Source: Xanthomarina sp. F2636L (GTDB lineage Bacteria; Bacteroidota; Bacteroidia; Flavobacteriales; Flavobacteriaceae). From it: a DNA stretch of 64,000 nucleotides. Made by a program: the position numbers and the translations under genes. Positions 24,980-32,577 of the stretch are shown in pieces (positions within the stretch are counted from its first letter, which is position 1; the number at the start of each line of letters is the position of its first letter). The DNA is taken from NCBI RefSeq assembly GCF_026410195.1, contig NZ_JAPMLM010000058.1:62001-126000 (forward strand). The letters are read 5' to 3'. The notes under the pieces were generated by a model. It worked only from the letters and a program-made list of their open reading frames with translations, ran no database searches and was not told the DNA's origin.

Positions 24980-24987
24980 TATATTTG
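24980..24987 (+). promoter_or_regulatory. -7 element of the nirK promoter
   Basis: TATATTTG matches TAnnTTTG. Transcription would start near 24993, a few bases before the palindromic site at 25001-25016, so a protein bound there would block initiation or early elongation. Confidence 0.6.
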
Positions 24988-25000
24988 CAGTGTAACAATT

Positions 25001-25016
25001 AGGATTAATTTGTCCG
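25001..25016 (+). promoter_or_regulatory. putative Rrf2/NsrR operator before nirK
   Basis: AGGATTAATTTGTCCG, followed by AATTAAG, is one of three copies of an RGGA-N8-TCCG site in this window; the others lie before ric (32021-32036) and rrf2 (32555-32570). Position just after the -7 element suits repression. The regulator is inferred to be the Rrf2 protein encoded at 32076-32510. Confidence 0.6.
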
Positions 25017-25057
25017 AATTAAGAACTGAATTAATAAATCACTAAAAATTATTTTTT

Positions 25058-26527
25058 ATGAAAACAAACCAAAAATCAAAAAGAAAATTTAGATTAGTAA
25101 GGAATATGGCTTTACTAATAACACCTATCTTTTTTGTAGCTTGTTTAAACGACAAGAAAGAAGAGAAAGTAAATGCAGCTGAAATTCCAGTAAATCAAGA
25201 GATGATGGCCGAATTAACTTCGCCACCAAACGTTCCAACACCCGTAGGAGCAAGAAAAGCGAAAAAGCTTAAAGTGAATATGGAAATACTAGAAGAAGAA
25301 GGCGAAATGACGGACGGTGTGCGCTACAACTATTGGACATTTGGAGGTTCTGTACCAGGAAGTTTTATTAGAACTCGAGTAGGTGATGAAGTAGAGTTTA
25401 CATTATCGAATCACCCCGATAACAAGTTGCCGCATAATATTGATTTACATGCCGTAACTGGACCAGGTGGAGGCGCTGAGTCTTCTTTCGTAGCTCCAGG
25501 TTTTGAAAAAACGTTTTCTTTTAAAACGTTAAATCCAGGGCTTTTTGTTTACCATTGTGCTACAGCACCAGTTGGGATGCATATTGCAAACGGAATGTAT
25601 GGTTTAATTTTAGTTGAACCAGAAGGAGGTTTACCACCTGTAGATAAAGAATATTATATTATGCAAGGTGATTTCTATACCAAAGGAAAAAATGGTGAAA
25701 GAGGATTACAACCTTTCGATATGCAGAAAGCAGTTGATGAAAATGCAGATTACGTGGTGTTTAACGGTAGTGTTGATGGTTTAACAGGCGATAATGCTAT
25801 TACTGCCAAAGTAGGAGAAACTGTAAGACTTTATGTTGGTAATGGTGGACCAAACCTAGTATCATCATTCCATGTTATTGGCGAAATATTTGATAAAGTA
25901 TATGTTGAAGGTGGCGATTTAATTAACGAAAATATCCAAACAACACTTATCCCTGCAGGAGGTGCTGCTATTGTAGAGTTCCGTGTAGACGTTCCTGGGT
26001 CACTTGTTTTAGTAGATCACTCTATTTTTAGAGCTTTTAATAAGGGTGCGTTAGGAATTTTAAATGTTGAAGGAGAAGAAGATGAGAAAATCTATTCAGG
26101 TGAAACATATGAAGGTATCTACCATCCGGAAGGCCCTGGTATTCAAAGTATGCCTACAACAGATGAAATTGTAGAATCTGAAGTTCCAGCAAAATCATTT
26201 GAGGAGCAAATGGAATATGGTAAACAAGTATATATGCAAACCTGTTTTGCTTGTCACCAAGGTGAAGGTCAAGGGATTCCTAATGCGTTTCCTCCATTGG
26301 CAAAATCAGATTACTTAAATGCTGATGTTAATCGTGCCATTAGTGCGGTAGTAAATGGGTTAAGTGGAGAAATAACTGTAAACGGAAAAACTTATAATAG
26401 TGTTATGACGAGACAGATGATTTCTTCAGAAGAGGTTGCAAATGTATTAACTTACGTTTACAATAGCTGGGGTAACAATAAACAAGTTGTTACAACAGAG
26501 ATGGTTAATAAAGTAAAAAATAAATAA
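25058..26527 (+). CDS. nirK: copper nitrite reductase fused to C-terminal cytochrome c domain
   Basis: A 489-residue lipoprotein-like protein (signal peptide ending V-A-C, Cys29) that reduces nitrite to nitric oxide in the periplasm. The two cupredoxin domains hold all expected ligands: His126, Asp129 and His131 (H-N-I-D-L-H), His166-Cys167, His175, Met180 (type 1 and type 2 copper), His272 in S-F-H-V-I-G-E (catalytic) and His321. A cytochrome c domain follows at about 380-480, with C-F-A-C-H at 396-400, giving an internal electron donor. This NirK-cytochrome c fusion is known in other bacteria. The operon continues with nirV, SCO and porin genes. A TAnnTTTG promoter and a candidate Rrf2 operator precede it. 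Confidence 0.96.
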   Translation: MKTNQKSKRKFRLVRNMALLITPIFFVACLNDKKEEKVNAAEIPVNQEMMAELTSPPNVPTPVGARKAKKLKVNMEILEEEGEMTDGVRYNYWTFGGSVPGSFIRTRVGDEVEFTLSNHPDNKLPHNIDLHAVTGPGGGAESSFVAPGFEKTFSFKTLNPGLFVYHCATAPVGMHIANGMYGLILVEPEGGLPPVDKEYYIMQGDFYTKGKNGERGLQPFDMQKAVDENADYVVFNGSVDGLTGDNAITAKVGETVRLYVGNGGPNLVSSFHVIGEIFDKVYVEGGDLINENIQTTLIPAGGAAIVEFRVDVPGSLVLVDHSIFRAFNKGALGILNVEGEEDEKIYSGETYEGIYHPEGPGIQSMPTTDEIVESEVPAKSFEEQMEYGKQVYMQTCFACHQGEGQGIPNAFPPLAKSDYLNADVNRAISAVVNGLSGEITVNGKTYNSVMTRQMISSEEVANVLTYVYNSWGNNKQVVTTEMVNKVKNK

Positions 26528-26536
26528 ATTTTAATT

Positions 26537-27313
26537 ATGAAAACCAAAGTCTTTAGCTTGTTATTAACGTGTTTAGTTTTTCAAACTTTTATGTTTGGAC
26601 AAGCTAAAGAAATGGTTCTCATAGAAGGTAGTCGCTATTTACCACTTTACGGAAGGGATTCTACAGTAGTTGCTGTCAAGGATTTTAAAATGGATGTGTA
26701 TCCAGTAAGTGTTGAAGAATATATGACTTTTTTAAAAGATAATCCGAAATGGCGAAAGTCTAATGTTAAAGGATTATTTGCAGACAAAAGTTACTTGTCT
26801 AACTGGGAATCCGATTTAAAAATGAATGAATCTGTTAACCCAAATAGTCCAATTACAAATGTATCTTGGTTTGCAGCTAAAGCTTACTGCGAATGCCAAG
26901 ACAAACGTTTACCAACTGTTGATGAGTGGGAATATGCTGCTATGGCAGACGAAACTACTAAAGATGCTAGAGTTAAACCAGATTATAACGCACGGATTTT
27001 ATCTTGGTACGAAGAACCTCGTAAAGAACTTATTATTGGTGATAGCCCAAAAAATATATGGGGAGTTTACGATTTGCACGGCTTAGTGTGGGAGTGGACT
27101 CTAGATTTTAATTCGGTATTAATCACTGGAGAATCAAGAAAAGATACCGATAAGGACAGTAATTTGTTTTGTGGTAGTGCGTCCATAAATGCTACCGATT
27201 TAATGAATTATGCAGCCTTTATGCGTTATGCGATTAGAGGAAGTTTGCAAGCAAAAAATTCTATGAAAAACTTAGGTTTTCGTTGTGTAAAGGATGTAAA
27301 TGAATTAAAATAA
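26537..27313 (+). CDS. nirV: NirV-like formylglycine-generating-enzyme-fold protein
   Basis: A 258-residue secreted protein (signal peptide to about 22) with the SUMF1/FGE-sulfatase fold: P-V-S-V-E-E-Y near 56, N-V-S-W-F-A-A-K-A-Y-C near 110, R-L-P-T-V-D-E-W-E-Y-A-A near 125, G-V-Y-D-L-H-G-L-V-W-E-W near 174, and G-F-R-C-V near 250. NirV proteins are SUMF1-like partners encoded next to nirK in several denitrifiers, and their role is not settled. It lies 9 bases after nirK and abuts the SCO gene. The symbol is based on fold plus position. Confidence 0.85.
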   Translation: MKTKVFSLLLTCLVFQTFMFGQAKEMVLIEGSRYLPLYGRDSTVVAVKDFKMDVYPVSVEEYMTFLKDNPKWRKSNVKGLFADKSYLSNWESDLKMNESVNPNSPITNVSWFAAKAYCECQDKRLPTVDEWEYAAMADETTKDARVKPDYNARILSWYEEPRKELIIGDSPKNIWGVYDLHGLVWEWTLDFNSVLITGESRKDTDKDSNLFCGSASINATDLMNYAAFMRYAIRGSLQAKNSMKNLGFRCVKDVNELK

Positions 27314-28033
27314 ATGAAATATCTAAAAACAATCATATCAGTAATGATGTTGCTTATAGTAGTAACATCTTGTAATTCAGATAAATCTAAAGGTTCTCAA
27401 GAAGAAGTAGCCGTTTATCAATGTCCCATGCAATGCGAAGGGGATAAAACCTATACTGAAAACGTAACTTGTCCTATCTGTAAAATGGATTTAAAACAAG
27501 TTGATGCCCAAGTAAAAAAATCTGAAGCTAGCGATGAAATTTCAGGTGAATCTATTTTTAATCTTACTAGTAAATGGAATACAGAAGAAGGTAAAGAAAT
27601 TCAACTTGAAGATTTAAAAGGAAAAACCTTAGTTATGGTTATGATTTATACGTCTTGTAAAGCAGCCTGTCCAAGACTTGTTGCAGATATGCGAAATATT
27701 GAAGCTAAAATTCCTAAGGAAAGATTACAAAATTTAAACTTTGTTCTAGTAAGTATAGACCCTACTGTAGACACACCAAAACGTCTTAAAGATTTTGCCA
27801 TAGAAAATGTTATGGATGATGAGCACTGGACATTTTTACAAGGAACAGAAAGTGGTGTAAGAGAGTTTGCCAATGTTCTTTCTGTAAAATATAAAGAAAT
27901 TTCACCTATAGACTTTTCACATTCTAATATTATAAGTGTTTTTAATTCTGAAGGCGAGTTAATCCACCAACAAGAAGGCTTAGGTGTAGACAATAAAGAA
28001 ACTGTAGAAGCTATTATTCAGTTAACACAATAA
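27314..28033 (+). CDS. SCO/SenC copper chaperone with heavy-metal-binding N-terminal domain
   Basis: A 239-residue lipoprotein (lipobox V-V-T-S-C, Cys20). Residues about 35-62 hold two Cys pairs, C-P-M-Q-C and C-P-I-C, in a small heavy-metal-binding domain like those on copper efflux proteins. The SCO1/SenC thioredoxin fold follows, with the copper-binding C-K-A-A-C (Cys115, Cys119) and the distal His in F-S-H-S-N near 203. SCO proteins insert copper into oxidases, and here the nirK context suggests delivery to nitrite reductase. It abuts nirV with no intervening bases. Confidence 0.9.
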   Translation: MKYLKTIISVMMLLIVVTSCNSDKSKGSQEEVAVYQCPMQCEGDKTYTENVTCPICKMDLKQVDAQVKKSEASDEISGESIFNLTSKWNTEEGKEIQLEDLKGKTLVMVMIYTSCKAACPRLVADMRNIEAKIPKERLQNLNFVLVSIDPTVDTPKRLKDFAIENVMDDEHWTFLQGTESGVREFANVLSVKYKEISPIDFSHSNIISVFNSEGELIHQQEGLGVDNKETVEAIIQLTQ

Positions 28034-28043
28034 TTTTACCACT

Positions 28044-28079
28044 CGATAATTATTAAAAAGCGTTTTTATAACGCTATCG
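28044..28079 (+). promoter_or_regulatory. leader stem-loop before the porin gene
   Basis: A perfect inner stem AGCGTT / AACGCT (loop TTTAT) lies inside outer arms CGATA / TATCG. No T-run follows, so it is not a standard terminator. It could tune porin expression within the nirK transcript or stabilise the 3' end of the upstream message. Confidence 0.4.
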
Positions 28080-28097
28080 AATCCTAAAAATAATACA

Positions 28098-29369
28098 ATG
28101 AAAAAAATACTAGCAATCCTATGTATAGGACTTGGCATGGCAACCTATGCTCAAGAATTTGAAGTTTCGGCAGAATTAAGACCTCGGTTTGAATACAGAC
28201 ATGGTTACAAAACATTAGCCGTAGACTCTATAAATGCAGCTGCTTTTGTATCTCAGCGAACACGTTTAAATTTTGGGTACAAAAGTGAAAAACTAAATGC
28301 CTATTTTAGTTTGCAAAACGTAAGAGTTTGGGGAGATGTTCCAACTTTATCAGATTCTGATGTCAACGGCACAGCCATTCATGAAGCTTGGGCTGAAGTT
28401 CTTTTAAACAACCAGTTTTCTTTAAAATTTGGACGCCAAGAAATTGTTTACGACGACCAACGAATGTTTGGTAATGTAGGCTGGGCACAACAGGCCAGAA
28501 GCCACGATGCGCTTATTGTAACCTTTAAACCAAATAAAAATAACAGAATAGACTTAGGTTTAGCTCTTAGTGCTGAAAGTGAATCTTTGGCTGAAATAGA
28601 TTATAATGTAAATAACTACAAATCGTTTCAGTATCTATGGTATCATACCCGTTTAAGTGATATTGGATTGAGCTTTTTAATTCTTAATAATGGTTTGGCT
28701 TATTACGATTTAGATAGCGAGCAACAAGTAGATTATAACCAAACTTTTGGAACACATGCTAGCTATGCTAAAAGCAAACTAAAAGCAGATGCTTCTGCTT
28801 ACTTTCAAACAGGAAAAATAGCAAATACAGATTTAAGCGCTTTTAACTTCGCTTTAAATGCATATTATGACATTACAGATAATTTTAATATAGGTTTAGG
28901 AGGTGAGTATTTATCTGGTACAGATATGAACACTACAAGTAATAAGCTTGAATCTTTTAATCCTTGGTATGGAACCAACCATAAATTTAATGGATGGATG
29001 GATTATTTCTATGTTGGCAGTCATTCAGCTTCTGTTGGGTTACTGGATTTGAATGCAACCATTGCTTACCAAAAGAATAAATTTACAGCGAAATTAATGC
29101 CACATTTCTTTTCCTCAGCAGCAACTATTATTAATGGTTCAGGAGAGGAGTTAAGCAATACTTTAGGAACTGAAATAGATTTGACACTTGGTTATAATTT
29201 CTCGAAAGACATCCAGTTTCAAGTAGGATATTCTCAAATGTTTGCTACAGAAAGTATGGAAGTTTTAAAAGGAGGAGATAAAGATGCAACCAACAATTGG
29301 GCGTGGGCTATGATTGTGGTAAAACCAACCTTGTTTAAAACCAACTTCAAAAAAGAAGTAACAGAATAA
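28098..29369 (+). CDS. porin, alginate-export-like outer-membrane barrel
   Basis: A 423-residue protein with a signal peptide (cleavage after T-Y-A-Q, about 19) followed by many amphipathic strands. E-V-S-A-E-L-R-P-R-F-E-Y-R near 21 and L-K-F-G-R-Q-E-I-V-Y-D-D-Q-R-M-F near 113 are typical of alginate-export-type (AlgE-like) 18-stranded porins. Members adjacent to nirK are frequent in Bacteroidota. Its place at the end of the nirK-nirV-SCO series, 64 bases after SCO, suggests it passes nitrite or copper across the outer membrane (inference). The gene is convergent with the hemerythrin gene, 17 bases away. Confidence 0.82.
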   Translation: MKKILAILCIGLGMATYAQEFEVSAELRPRFEYRHGYKTLAVDSINAAAFVSQRTRLNFGYKSEKLNAYFSLQNVRVWGDVPTLSDSDVNGTAIHEAWAEVLLNNQFSLKFGRQEIVYDDQRMFGNVGWAQQARSHDALIVTFKPNKNNRIDLGLALSAESESLAEIDYNVNNYKSFQYLWYHTRLSDIGLSFLILNNGLAYYDLDSEQQVDYNQTFGTHASYAKSKLKADASAYFQTGKIANTDLSAFNFALNAYYDITDNFNIGLGGEYLSGTDMNTTSNKLESFNPWYGTNHKFNGWMDYFYVGSHSASVGLLDLNATIAYQKNKFTAKLMPHFFSSAATIINGSGEELSNTLGTEIDLTLGYNFSKDIQFQVGYSQMFATESMEVLKGGDKDATNNWAWAMIVVKPTLFKTNFKKEVTE

Positions 29370-29386
29370 AAACTATTTAAAATAGA

Positions 29387-29848
29387 TTATTTCCAAAATT
29401 CATCATCAAGATTGTCTTCAAAAGGCGCTTCGTGGTGAATTTTTTCTATTAGAATTAATTGCTCTTCTGTTGCAATTTTTTGAATTTCAGGAAAAAGCAC
29501 GCGTTCCTCAAAACGAATATGTTGTTCTAATTCTTCTTCAATTTTACTTAAGGTTTTTGGTTCTACTTCTGTTTCCGAAAACAATCGCTTTAAACGTCTG
29601 TGTTCTGCTAAAGCACGTTTTACCAGTTCATTGTCACTTTCTAAAATAGGGAAAACATGATTTTCTTCCATGTCAAAATGAGGAATCAAATGTGTTTCAA
29701 AAAACCAATCTGCATATGTTTTTATACGTTTTGGATCTATGTTTTTATTGAATCCGCTTCTAATTTTCCATGATAAAAGTAAGCCATGATGATGCTCTCT
29801 GCTTAAAGGTTGTAACGCTTTATGACGTTTTTGAGGTTTGGTTTTCAT
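29387..29848 (-). CDS. hemerythrin-like di-iron protein
   Basis: A 153-residue cytosolic four-helix protein. Iron-ligand motifs: S-R-E-H-H-H near 20, H-F-D-M-E-E near 54 and H-I-R-F-E-E-R-V near 110, plus E-H-R near 80. Such proteins bind O2 or NO at a di-iron site. The gene overlaps the end of the upstream membrane-protein gene by 29 bases, implying tight coupling. Together with ric and the Rrf2 regulator upstream, a role in NO handling is likely. Confidence 0.88.
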   Translation of the reverse strand: MKTKPQKRHKALQPLSREHHHGLLLSWKIRSGFNKNIDPKRIKTYADWFFETHLIPHFDMEENHVFPILESDNELVKRALAEHRRLKRLFSETEVEPKTLSKIEEELEQHIRFEERVLFPEIQKIATEEQLILIEKIHHEAPFEDNLDDEFWK

Positions 29849-31031
29849 ATGATTTGGTTTTATAAATATTAAAAATAAGACCTACAATTCCTAAAGGAAG
29901 TAAGATACTACTTAAAAACAGTAAGACATAATAGTTTGGTAACAATCCTATTCCAAAGTAAAACAAACAGCCTTGAATTATTAAAATGAGCTCTGTTAGC
30001 ACAAACCCCAATACAAAAATATACATTCCAAGAGTTATGTTTTTATTGAACTTTACTAAGTTGCTTTGTAAAATATAAACAAATAAAAATCCTGAAATAA
30101 CGCCTAACATGGTTAAATGTATGAAGCCAATTACTAAGTTTCTATGTTGAAATGCCATATTTGAAATTTCTGGAATTAATGATAAAGTTTGCATACCTAT
30201 TTTTAATATGAAACAGAATAAGGCAAACCTTAACATGAACTTAATAATTTTAGAGCTTTCATTGATTACTTTTTTAAAGCCGGGTTTAATTAGATTTAAA
30301 AAAATCATTAAAGCAGCTATTTGAAGTATTACACCCAAACCATTAACCCAAAGTAACGTAATATGTGGGGCAAACCAGTTTATAGGTAAAGCAAATGTGA
30401 GAATGGTTGAGGTAATTAGTAATTTAAAAAAAAGTCTAAATTTTCTTGAGTCTTTTATCTGTAACTTATGAAACAGAATGGCTAAAACAGCTATTAAAAA
30501 CCATCCGTTAAACTGAAAATGTAGGAAAAACTGTATGGCAATTTGATAAAAAGCTGAAGCCTGACCAAGAATTCCAACTGCAGGACCTAAACACCATACT
30601 CCAATGGTAGAAATAATCATAAATAGGAGTGATCCTTTAAGTAACAGTTTGGAGACTATAGACTGCGTTTCATGGTTTTTCCAAATAAGTCTAAAAAAAT
30701 AATAACTACAAAATATATGGAGCGTCGAGAATGTTATTGAAATTGCAGCATAGCCTTGAAAAGGAAAACTGAACAACATACCAACAACTGCAATTTGGGT
30801 AATCCAGAATAAGATATTGTAAACATGTTTTTTCTCAGGAATAAAATAATGGACAAAAAGTGTGTAAAGCATTAAATATACCCAACCCAACATGGCAATA
30901 TGTGAATGCGCATGTGTTAAAAACCGATAATTAAAAGAGATAGGAGATAAATAGGTGTAGCGCAAAGCCAATCCTAATAAGGCTGCAATAAGAAAATTAA
31001 TTAAGCAAGTAAGTACGAGCTTTTTGGGCAT
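29820..31031 (-). CDS. polytopic membrane protein with heme-copper-oxidase-like His motifs
   Basis: A 403-residue protein with about 12 membrane helices. I start it at ATG 31031, since the longer ORF begins with TTG. Conserved-looking histidines: H-A-H-S-H-I-A-M-L-G-W (His40, 42, 44) at the start of the second helix, L-H near 105, F-F-L-H-F-Q-F-N-G-W (His171), H-I near 223, and H-R-N-L-V-I-G-F-I-H-L-T-M-L-G (His296, His305). These resemble the heme ligands of subunit I of heme-copper oxidases and NO reductases, but the fold is divergent and the assignment is tentative. Coupled to a hemerythrin gene and next to ric and an Rrf2 gene, it is a candidate NO-responsive heme protein. Confidence 0.65.
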   Translation of the reverse strand: MPKKLVLTCLINFLIAALLGLALRYTYLSPISFNYRFLTHAHSHIAMLGWVYLMLYTLFVHYFIPEKKHVYNILFWITQIAVVGMLFSFPFQGYAAISITFSTLHIFCSYYFFRLIWKNHETQSIVSKLLLKGSLLFMIISTIGVWCLGPAVGILGQASAFYQIAIQFFLHFQFNGWFLIAVLAILFHKLQIKDSRKFRLFFKLLITSTILTFALPINWFAPHITLLWVNGLGVILQIAALMIFLNLIKPGFKKVINESSKIIKFMLRFALFCFILKIGMQTLSLIPEISNMAFQHRNLVIGFIHLTMLGVISGFLFVYILQSNLVKFNKNITLGMYIFVLGFVLTELILIIQGCLFYFGIGLLPNYYVLLFLSSILLPLGIVGLIFNIYKTKSYENQTSKTS

Positions 31032-31126
31032 ATTTAAAAACAATAGTAAAATGTAAAAGTAACGAAATAAAGAAAAACACTCCTCTTGTATTAGAAAAAC
31101 TACATGAACATAAACTTACTCCTCAA

Positions 31127-31134
31127 CAAATTTA
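31127..31134 (-). promoter_or_regulatory. -7 element for the His-rich membrane protein / hemerythrin pair
   Basis: On the minus strand TAAATTTG matches TAnnTTTG, 96 bases before the ATG at 31031. The long leader holds an imperfect inverted repeat (31074-31087 with 31152-31165). No copy of the RGGA-N8-TCCG site was seen here. Confidence 0.35.
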
Positions 31135-31204
31135 AAACCATAATTAATTACAGGAGAAGTGTTTTATTAAATACTATTACTAATGTTAAAATATTTATAT
31201 TTTA

Positions 31205-31241
31205 AAATCTGGAAGCCGTTGGGGAAGAGACTCCCAGATTT
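31205..31241 (-). terminator. possible terminator after ric
   Basis: Arms AAATCTGG / CCAGATTT enclose a 21-base loop that itself can pair GGG with CCC. On the minus strand it is followed by a T/A-rich run, not a pure T-run, so support is moderate. Confidence 0.4.
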
Positions 31242-31275
31242 ATCTTTAGAAAATGTCATTTGCTATTAATCATTC

Positions 31276-32007
31276 TTAAAGAAAAGCTTTTTCTAATTTG
31301 GCAGCTTCAGGGAATAATATGTTATTTTCTAAATGGATATGTAAGTGTAAATCTTTTTCAAACTCATCCAACATGGCAAATGTTACTTTGTATGTATTAC
31401 AAGCATCTGCTGGAGGTGTATAATTGTCTGTCAATTCAGCAATTTGTCTAAAGCGCTCTCCTTCATTCTCATGTTCTTGCATCATGGCAGCAATAGGATT
31501 AGCAACAGTTTCAAACTGTGGAGATAAAATGGCACCTTTTTCTATTTGTGCTTTTACCATCTTTTTAATGAAAGGGAATAAAATTAATTCCTCTTTTTTC
31601 ATATGAGATGCAAGCTCACCAGTAGAAGCAGTAAACAACTCATTGATTTTAAATAATTCAGGATGATTCCCACCATGTACTTTACAAAGCTTATCTAAAA
31701 ACTGACGTAAAACAGGTGTTTTTTCTTCCACATATCTGTGATGTTTTTTCTCAATATACTCAGCTAATAAATCTAATGGCCATGATTTGTAATCTATAGA
31801 TTGATTTGCATTGGAAGATACAATCTTATCTAAGTCGCTTAATAAAGTGTTGCTATCAATATTATTTTTTGTACAAACTTCTTCGATTGTTCTGTCACCT
31901 TTACAGCAGAAATCTATTCCATACTTAGAAAATACTGAAGCTGTTCTATAATCTTCGGCAACATACTGCCCTATTTGTTTTTGTGTGTCTTTAGTTAATG
32001 TTTCCAT
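31276..32007 (-). CDS. ric: iron-sulfur cluster repair di-iron protein (ScdA/YtfE/Ric)
   Basis: A 243-residue protein. The N-terminal ScdA_N domain has Y-R-T-A-S-V-F-S-K-Y-G-I-D-F-C-C-K-G near 20-37 with the twin Cys. The hemerythrin-like domain supplies iron ligands H-H-R-Y near 93, H-G-G-N-H near 114, H-M-K-K-E-E near 133, H-E-N-E near 179 and H-I-H-L-E near 223. Ric proteins repair Fe-S clusters damaged by NO or oxidants and can release NO from iron. It lies downstream of rrf2 with a 68-base gap containing a copy of the shared palindromic site. Confidence 0.94.
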   Translation of the reverse strand: METLTKDTQKQIGQYVAEDYRTASVFSKYGIDFCCKGDRTIEEVCTKNNIDSNTLLSDLDKIVSSNANQSIDYKSWPLDLLAEYIEKKHHRYVEEKTPVLRQFLDKLCKVHGGNHPELFKINELFTASTGELASHMKKEELILFPFIKKMVKAQIEKGAILSPQFETVANPIAAMMQEHENEGERFRQIAELTDNYTPPADACNTYKVTFAMLDEFEKDLHLHIHLENNILFPEAAKLEKAFL

Positions 32008-32020
32008 AATTATTTTTATT

Positions 32021-32036
32021 CGGATGTTTTTATCCT
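32021..32036 (-). promoter_or_regulatory. putative Rrf2/NsrR operator before ric
   Basis: On the minus strand AGGATAAAAACATCCG followed by AATAAAA matches the nirK and rrf2 sites in both half-sites and spacing. It ends 14 bases before the ric ATG. Confidence 0.55.
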
Positions 32037-32075
32037 ATTTATATTTAAATTTTTTTAAGTGAACTCAATTATTTT

Positions 32076-32510
32076 TTAAGTTTTTAAAAATGAGACACCA
32101 GATTTAATGTCTAATGCTAATTCTTCTAAGTTTGTGTTTTCCAACATAAATTTTAATTCGTCTCTAACAGATTTAAATTTATCGTGTACTGGGCAAGGAT
32201 GCAACTCATCACAAGTATGTAAACCTAAGCCACAACCTTTATAAATACTGTCTCCATCTATAGCATTAACAATTTGAGATAATTTAATAGTTGCAATAGC
32301 ATGTTTGTCTATCTCAAAACCACCATAAGCACCTTTTACAGAGTTAATAATTCCATGTCTTACTAGATCTTGAAGAATTTTAGCTGTAAAAGCTTCTGGA
32401 GAATTTATTTCTTTAGCAATAGCTTTCAGGCTAACTCGTTTATTTTCATAAGAGTTTAACGCTATATAAATAGACGCTTTAATTCCGTATTCGCATGCTT
32501 TAGAAAACAT
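32076..32510 (-). CDS. Rrf2-family transcriptional regulator, NsrR-like
   Basis: A 144-residue regulator with the Rrf2 winged helix (C-E-Y-G-I-K-A at the N-terminus, A-F-T-A-K-I-L-Q-D-L recognition region near 40-49, G-A-Y-G-G-F wing near 60). Three cysteines, Cys93, Cys100 and Cys106, have the spacing C-X6-C-X5-C, close to the cluster ligands of NsrR and IscR. Adjacent ric, hemerythrin and nirK genes favour an NO-sensing NsrR role over IscR, as no isc/suf genes are near. Its own promoter overlaps a near-perfect 30-base palindrome, consistent with autorepression. Confidence 0.88.
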   Translation of the reverse strand: MFSKACEYGIKASIYIALNSYENKRVSLKAIAKEINSPEAFTAKILQDLVRHGIINSVKGAYGGFEIDKHAIATIKLSQIVNAIDGDSIYKGCGLGLHTCDELHPCPVHDKFKSVRDELKFMLENTNLEELALDIKSGVSFLKT

Positions 32511-32530
32511 ATAATAGTTTTAATTCGGTA

Positions 32531-32562
32531 CAAATGTAAAATAAAAATTTAATACGGACAAA
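32531..32562 (-). promoter_or_regulatory. rrf2 promoter
   Basis: On the minus strand TTTG (32562-32559), a 20-base spacer and TACATTTG (32538-32531) give a complete Bacteroidota promoter, with the start codon 20 bases further at 32510. The -33 box lies inside the operator. Confidence 0.72.
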
Positions 32563-32577
32563 TTTATCCGAATTAAA
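32548..32577. promoter_or_regulatory. 30-base palindromic operator between rrf2 and an M16 peptidase gene
   Basis: The arms match at 13 of 15 positions around the core CGGACAAATTTATCCG (32555-32570). It covers the -33 box of rrf2 and lies 67 bases before the peptidase start at 32644, so it may act on both genes. Confidence 0.65.

Follow-up and report, generated by a model that had tools for sequence, protein, structure and literature searches.

The nirK, ric and rrf2 locus

A 64,000-nucleotide stretch of the genome of Xanthomarina sp. F2636L (Flavobacteriaceae; contig NZ_JAPMLM010000058.1, positions 62,001 to 126,000), referred to below as the window, carries nirK, ric and rrf2, the last of which codes for a regulator of the Rrf2 family. 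One palindromic site precedes each of these three genes, and was analyzed as a candidate operator of the regulator. The genes, sites and promoter boxes are as follows.

25058–26527, + strand: nirK, copper nitrite reductase with a C-terminal cytochrome c domain (TIGR02376, 357.5 bits; cut-off 296.3)
31276–32007, − strand: ric, RIC/YtfE/ScdA di-iron protein (TIGR03652, 242.4 bits; cut-off 204.7)
32076–32510, − strand: rrf2, Rrf2-family regulator of 144 amino acids (profiles, alignment and structure model)
25001–25016, + strand: candidate nirK operator, AGGATTAATTTGTCCG, both halves GGA-type, 41 bases 5′ of the nirK ATG and just past the −7 box
32021–32036, − strand: candidate ric operator, AGGATAAAAACATCCG, within the rrf2-ric gap
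32555–32570, − strand: candidate rrf2 operator, predicted to be autoregulatory, CGGATAAATTTGTCCG on the gene's strand, overlapping the −33 TTTG
24980–24987, + strand: candidate −7 box of nirK, TATATTTG, of the TAnnTTTG form
32531–32538, − strand: candidate −7 box of rrf2, TACATTTG, 20 nucleotides downstream of the TTTG at 32562–32559

An earlier note on this DNA had placed the three 16-mers at these positions and on these strands, each followed by AATT or AATA, and this was confirmed. The motif it proposed for all three, RGGA-N8-TCCG, holds for the nirK and ric copies but not for the rrf2 copy, which reads CGGA...TCCG on both strands; the part common to the three sites is (A/C)GGA-N8-TCCG. In rrf2 promoters and rrf2-ric gaps of relatives the operator consensus is TAATTAGGATAAATTTATCCTAATTA. 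The −7 and −33 boxes were called with TAnnTTTG and TTTG, which we take to be the promoter consensus here. As had been claimed, the nirK copy lies just past its −7 box, starting about 13–14 bases past the end of TATATTTG, and the rrf2 copy covers its −33 box, the TTTG at 32562–32559 falling inside the operator.

Conservation of the operator in relatives

For relatives of the window's Rrf2, 149 genomes of this family were searched; 88 matched at E ≤ 1e-15, and the best 30 loci were read. A GAY-N6-RTC palindrome was found at −72 to −40 of rrf2 in 29 of 30, 21 of 27 and 7 of 10 loci, and in 5 of 14 loci from other families, with shuffle expectations of 0.14, 0.12, 0.04 and 0.05 for the same four sets. 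Fifteen paralog rows (L240–L254) were left out of this count; all 15 have a GAY-N6-RTC site 37–59 bp before the start. Where ric adjoins rrf2 in the first locus set, an operator lies in the gap in 20 of 21 loci. Locus L021 ends 10 bases behind rrf2, and was therefore outside the ric count.

Further loci were obtained by a scan of GTDB genomes as the best 80 of 533 relatives, from which 6 repeats of training loci were dropped, leaving 74. Their titles mostly name Formosa, Bizionia, Winogradskyella, Gelidibacter, Algibacter (presumably all Flavobacteriaceae genera) and the like, and some read only 'Bacteroidia bacterium'; the closest named relative of the window's Rrf2 among these best 80 of 533 is that of Formosa maritima (91%). 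The operator precedes rrf2 in 69 of the 74 loci, and is found in the rrf2-ric gap in 59 of the 60 with adjacent ric. Behind rrf2 in the remaining 14 loci lies either the nitric oxide (NO) reductase gene qNOR (10 loci; 54–55% or 82–97% identical to qNOR places, three also confirmed by Pfam) or a convergent gene (4 loci), and the site is present in 10 of 10 and 1 of 4 of these, respectively. Because it is present with ric or qNOR behind rrf2 and mostly absent with a convergent gene, the site mostly tracks the target gene and not the position. The operator is conserved, and it is tied to the regulator gene and to the targets.

Frequency and matrix scans

On frequency alone the short motif is weak. 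RGGA-N8-TCCG has 2 matches in the window against 0.71 expected, and at least 2 were obtained in 13 of 100 shuffles; this form, which leaves out the rrf2 copy and on its own is close to chance frequency, was dropped. In the genome-wide frequency check that the earlier note had proposed, GGA-N8-TCCGAATW occurs 4 times in the 3.37-Mb genome, as does the reversed-pattern control, which puts the short form near chance, yet 3 of the 4 are the window sites; the fourth (C65) lies inside a reading frame. At two mismatches the genome holds 153 sites, below the 359 of the reversed control, and this count is uninformative. Support well beyond chance comes from other genomes.

A matrix was trained on 24 rrf2 promoters of the best 30 loci, leaving out the window's genus. 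Its top three scores in the window are the rrf2 (34.1 bits), nirK (29.7 bits) and ric (21.2 bits) sites, and the next (13.8 bits) lies inside a gene. A whole-genome scan with a sequence model built from the same sites ranked rrf2 first (E 3.5e-5) and nirK second (E 8.1e-5), the next site having an E-value of 0.13; such scans scored 150 candidates per genome (150 of 4014 in the window's genome). If the three sites were alike by chance, or belonged to a palindrome common at promoters or terminators of this AT-rich genome, this would agree with the near-chance frequency of the short motif in window and genome, and one copy is called terminator-like. Such an origin is hardly credible, being contradicted by the out-of-sample ranking, by the near-universal conservation at orthologous promoters and by the dependence on the target gene.

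nirK and NO reductase promoters

Genomes were classed by the identity of their best Rrf2 match (at least 62%; 51–61%; nothing above 50%), the lowest class including genomes with more distant Rrf2 proteins. The places read were 30 of 36 for nirK, 30 of 73 for nosZ, 20 of 20 for qNOR and 26 of 26 for norB. The scoring matrix came from rrf2 sites of some of the same genomes; nirK, nor and nos sites of these genomes were not part of its training. Scores of at least 14 were obtained at nirK in 10 of 14, 0 of 8 and 0 of 8 genomes of the three classes, respectively (highest class against the rest, Fisher 3.3e-5), and at qNOR in 8 of 10, 2 of 5 and 0 of 5. At norCB they were reached in 2 of 8, 0 of 3 and 1 of 15 genomes, and norCB was rejected as a general target of the window-type Rrf2.

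Conservation at orthologous promoters, which had been suggested as a check of the motif, was thus found at rrf2, in the rrf2-ric gap and, where the Rrf2 is at least 62% identical, mostly at nirK as well. The prediction that the local Rrf2 recognizes all three sites is supported by these results, the operator being kept at orthologous promoters, tracking the target gene and scoring at nirK only with a close Rrf2 ortholog.

At E ≤ 0.02, 45 sites were found in 16 genomes that carry an ortholog: 15 at rrf2 (13 of them training sites), 11 at ric, 5 at nirK, 8 at qNOR or ferredoxin-cupin genes, 2 at the nosZ operon, and one each at norCB, a globin gene, a cupin gene and a cysH-like gene. One of the eight belongs to G134, a genome without a qNOR match. 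At loci L095 and L096, seen in genomes G110 and G134, a cupin gene accompanies a gene for a 2Fe-2S ferredoxin-like protein; in G110 the two separate the operator from qNOR, and G134 has both without a qNOR match.

The Rrf2 protein

The protein scores above the cut-offs of the Rrf2 superfamily (PF02082 and TIGR00738; 85.3 bits over 73.3 and 83 over 30). Against the NCBIfam NsrR model (NF008240) it reaches 29.2 bits where the cut-off is 182, and against IscR (TIGR02010) 51.8 bits where it is 207.55, though IscR is its best-scoring named equivalog. By profile it belongs to the Rrf2 superfamily, outside both the NsrR and the IscR cut-offs, and is no textbook NsrR.

The candidate ligands are C93-x6-C100-x5-C106-x2-H109, all four residues being the same in each of 20 aligned relatives. 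In the alignment H109 matches the His that follows the third Cys in E. coli IscR, a residue that E. coli NsrR is without, and the spacing C93-x6-C100 is one residue longer than in the C-x5-C-x5-C-x2-H of E. coli IscR. Glu7 aligns at the position of NsrR Asp8, and is replaced in some relatives; in Streptomyces coelicolor NsrR, Asp8 is a labile fourth ligand according to the part of PMC11500311 used here. The earlier description as an NsrR-type Rrf2 protein is not supported in the sense of NsrR by descent, given the score, the different operator and the IscR-like His; the three Cys are present. The AlphaFold model has the Rrf2 winged-helix fold, with a mean predicted local distance difference test score (pLDDT) of 84.8. 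By Foldseek E-value CymR and RsrR came first, IscR next and NsrR lower. When E. coli IscR and NsrR were placed in a tree, each came out on a very long branch, and kinship could not be read from it.

The second Rrf2 and operator dialects

A Pfam search gave two Rrf2 proteins in the window's genome. The second is 29% identical to the window's Rrf2, and its gene lies on another contig, 4.6 kb from norB. This region (G000:C66:96107-102473; L255, L297) also holds genes resembling cytochrome oxidase subunits III and IV (Pfam COX3, COX4_pro) near the second rrf2 and norCB. About 38 bp upstream of the second rrf2 lies AATATAGGATAAAAGTATCTTTTTAT, with one GGAY-type half. Sites with AAA-type half-sites, TATAAAAGATAAAAAGGTCTTTTAAA and TTTAAAAGATGTTTTTATCCTAAATA, start 45 bp 5′ of norC and 92 bp 5′ of the cytochrome gene of the nosZ operon, respectively.

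The three window sites might be read by this other Rrf2, or by both paralogs, as the half-GGAY site of the paralog promoter and the related AAA-half sites at norC and the nosZ operon would allow. Three observations speak against this and make it rather improbable: among the six promoter sites of the genome (rrf2, ric, nirK, norC, nosZ operon, paralog) GGAY occurs in both halves only at rrf2, ric and nirK; over the 74 further loci the operator travels with the window-type rrf2 and the gene behind it; and nirK does not score where only more distant Rrf2 proteins are present.

Recognition by the adjacent Rrf2 remains the preferred reading for rrf2, ric and nirK. For nosZ it was given up in favor of paralogs, because 11 of the 15 paralog rows carry the site in the space that separates the paralogous rrf2 from a divergent cytochrome gene of the nosZ operon; coordinates place these beside nosZ. 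At norB places a GAY palindrome was found 476–617 bp upstream in 19 of 26, and 17 of the 19 have an AAA-type half. At nirK a palindrome was present in 7 of the 16 genomes without a close ortholog (all 7 with an AAA half, 5 with two), and in 14 of 14 close-ortholog genomes (an AAA half in 5, of which 2 have two).

This pattern, though not perfectly clean, suggests sister Rrf2 regulators with neighboring codes and nirK switching master between them. More broadly, denitrification in Flavobacteriaceae could be run by sister Rrf2 proteins of ric/nirK/qNOR, norCB-associated and nosZ types, each with its own dialect of GAY-N6-RTC, and targets would swap master through two or three outer operator bases, as nirK apparently did; we give this extension even chances.

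Several observations were made on the sites and proteins themselves. Loci L034, L184, L185, L188 and L189 have the predicted recognition helix SPEPFTAK, not SPxAFTAK, and four of the five carry AAAGAY...RTCTTT at rrf2. The nirK and qNOR sites of genome G127 are of this AAAGAY...RTCTTT type also. The pairing of SPEPFTAK with AAA is not clean, L237 having SPEPFTAK and one G-type half. A similar TAAATATGAT stretch comes after many of the nosZ-operon sites, in L150–L157 among other nosZ loci, and may belong to a promoter or be a second binding site.

Proposed regulon and signal

We consider it likely that the adjacent Rrf2 uses the palindrome as its operator. A single regulon would then comprise rrf2 itself, ric and the nirK operon, with qNOR as a further member in relatives, and the protein would be released by NO or another product of nitrite reduction. 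The comparison of genomes gives good support to one predicted regulon shared by nirK, ric and rrf2, and the Rrf2 very probably runs an NO-related gene set with its own DNA code.

In the proposed mechanism a dimeric iron-sulfur (Fe-S) Rrf2 would sit on the promoters and repress them, over the −33 box of rrf2 and near the start site of nirK. Its cluster would be damaged by NO or another product of nitrite reduction, the protein would leave the DNA, and nitrite reductase would be made along with RIC, an NO-stress protein, and with NO reductase in genomes that have it. Both operator positions, over the −33 TTTG of rrf2 and just past the −7 box of nirK, fit repression. NO would be the likeliest signal on the Fe-S cluster because the targets make or handle NO (nirK, ric and qNOR; in single genomes norCB or a globin gene). 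Binding, its repressing sign, the type of cluster and NO as the effector are what we infer from this arrangement.

Several findings weigh against this proposal. In the genome scan the ric site ranks only fifth (E 0.74), under two sites that overlap reading frames; the support for it is comparative, from relatives. Enrichment of the exact 14-mer GGAYAAWWTTRTCC is no more than modest, at 0.356/Mb in genomes with an ortholog of at least 62% identity, 0.157 with 51–61% and 0.119 in the rest, the reversed control giving 0.295, 0.236 and 0.217/Mb in the same classes. This count per genome was dropped, the class difference being about threefold and the totals near the reversed control; in 20 regions around exact matches, many matches lie inside reading frames. 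In close-ortholog genomes 4 of 14 nirK genes score below 14, namely those of G013 (13.3), G021 (3.0), and G080 and G127 (AAA-type sites), and nirK of G005, G125 and G134 has one AAA-type half. Locus L370 still has a gap site with a convergent gene behind rrf2. Finally, sites could be shared with the second Rrf2 of the genome, whose operator is related.

With the same operator and regulon, the signal might be something other than NO: the protein would then sense Fe-S supply, iron or redox state in the manner of IscR, and the genes would be switched by cluster loss of any cause. Its C-x6-C-x5-C-x2-H is similar to the arrangement in IscR, the named equivalog against which it scores best. A part in Fe-S cluster repair has been proposed for RIC, but the role of this protein is debated, PMC9052748 (in the part considered) describing YtfE as NO-generating and arguing that it is mainly a nitrite reductase. 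Yet the protein is far below the IscR cut-off, and nearly all of the 45 sites in the 16 genomes lie at the regulator, RIC and denitrification or NO genes, with no isc or suf gene recognized among them and a single cysH-like one. A signal other than NO is therefore possible but unlikely, and NO or another product of nitrite reduction is retained as the predicted effector.

Comparison with known systems

The predicted regulon resembles NsrR regulons, as far as the parts of PMC1274295 and PMC11500311 compared here describe them, in the regulator family, the three Cys and overlapping targets (nirK, norB and dnrN are among those named). It differs in the operator, for which Rodionov 2005 (PMC1274295, same part) gives the NsrR consensus gATGyAT-N5-ATrCATc where GGAYAAWWTTRTCC is found here, and in the protein, with its low NsrR score, the His after the third Cys and Glu7 at the Asp8 position.

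Thermus thermophilus NsrR, in the excerpt of PMC5748679 considered, is likewise an Fe-S protein that regulates its own gene as well as those for nitrite and NO reductases, with sites mostly 50–73 bp before starts; unlike the window's Rrf2 it uses the site CTTGACC-N2-GGTCATGG, is a dual activator and repressor, and belongs to a different lineage. E. coli IscR shares the His two residues past the third Cys, by alignment, and the fold match, but is 26% identical, its cut-off is far from reached and no isc or suf target was recognized here. Rrf2 genes on clade II nosZ scaffolds of sediment metagenomes (PMC6264515) have in common the regulator family, the nearness to a denitrification gene and partly the phylum. 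By position they resemble the nosZ-linked paralogs and not the window's protein, and the portion of PMC6264515 compared gives no motif, targets or mechanism. Among the open-access literature matches listed there was no paper on this operator or regulon, nor on an operator code for Flavobacteriaceae denitrification genes, and the 14-mer GGATAAATTTATCC was not found in the open-access literature searched.

Denitrification genes and neighboring genes

Flavobacteriaceae are common in marine sediment. Of the 149 sampled genomes of this family, 35 have nirK and 71 have nosZ. From the operator one could predict, for a given genome, which denitrification steps are switched jointly, and the dialects amount to a natural experiment on the divergence of regulators and their sites.

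The window's genome has nosZ (TIGR04246, 935 bits; cut-off 625) and a norCB pair, whose subunits are COX1-family and cytochrome c proteins; a NorQ-type ATPase comes next. No NCBIfam equivalog names its norB relative, and no qNOR was found in it at E ≤ 1e-100. On paper, this gene content would make nitrite to N2 possible.

Three genes follow closely behind nirK.

26537–27313, + strand: formylglycine-generating-like protein
27314–28033, + strand: SCO1/SenC
28098–29369, + strand: alginate-export-like porin

Judged from spacing, nirK and the genes at 26537–29369 probably form one operon.

A hemerythrin-domain gene (29387–29848) adjoins the gene of an apparent membrane protein of about 400 amino acids (29820–31043), for which no Pfam or NCBIfam match was found at E 0.001. 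Behind ric, at 31200–31245, lies the inverted repeat AATCTGG...CCAGATT, perhaps a terminator separating ric from this pair. One operon of ric with the membrane protein-hemerythrin pair is probably not present here, the two being about 230 bp apart with the inverted repeat behind ric. The same pair is found 3′ of ric in genome G093 (L109), where ric and the membrane protein-hemerythrin genes abut.

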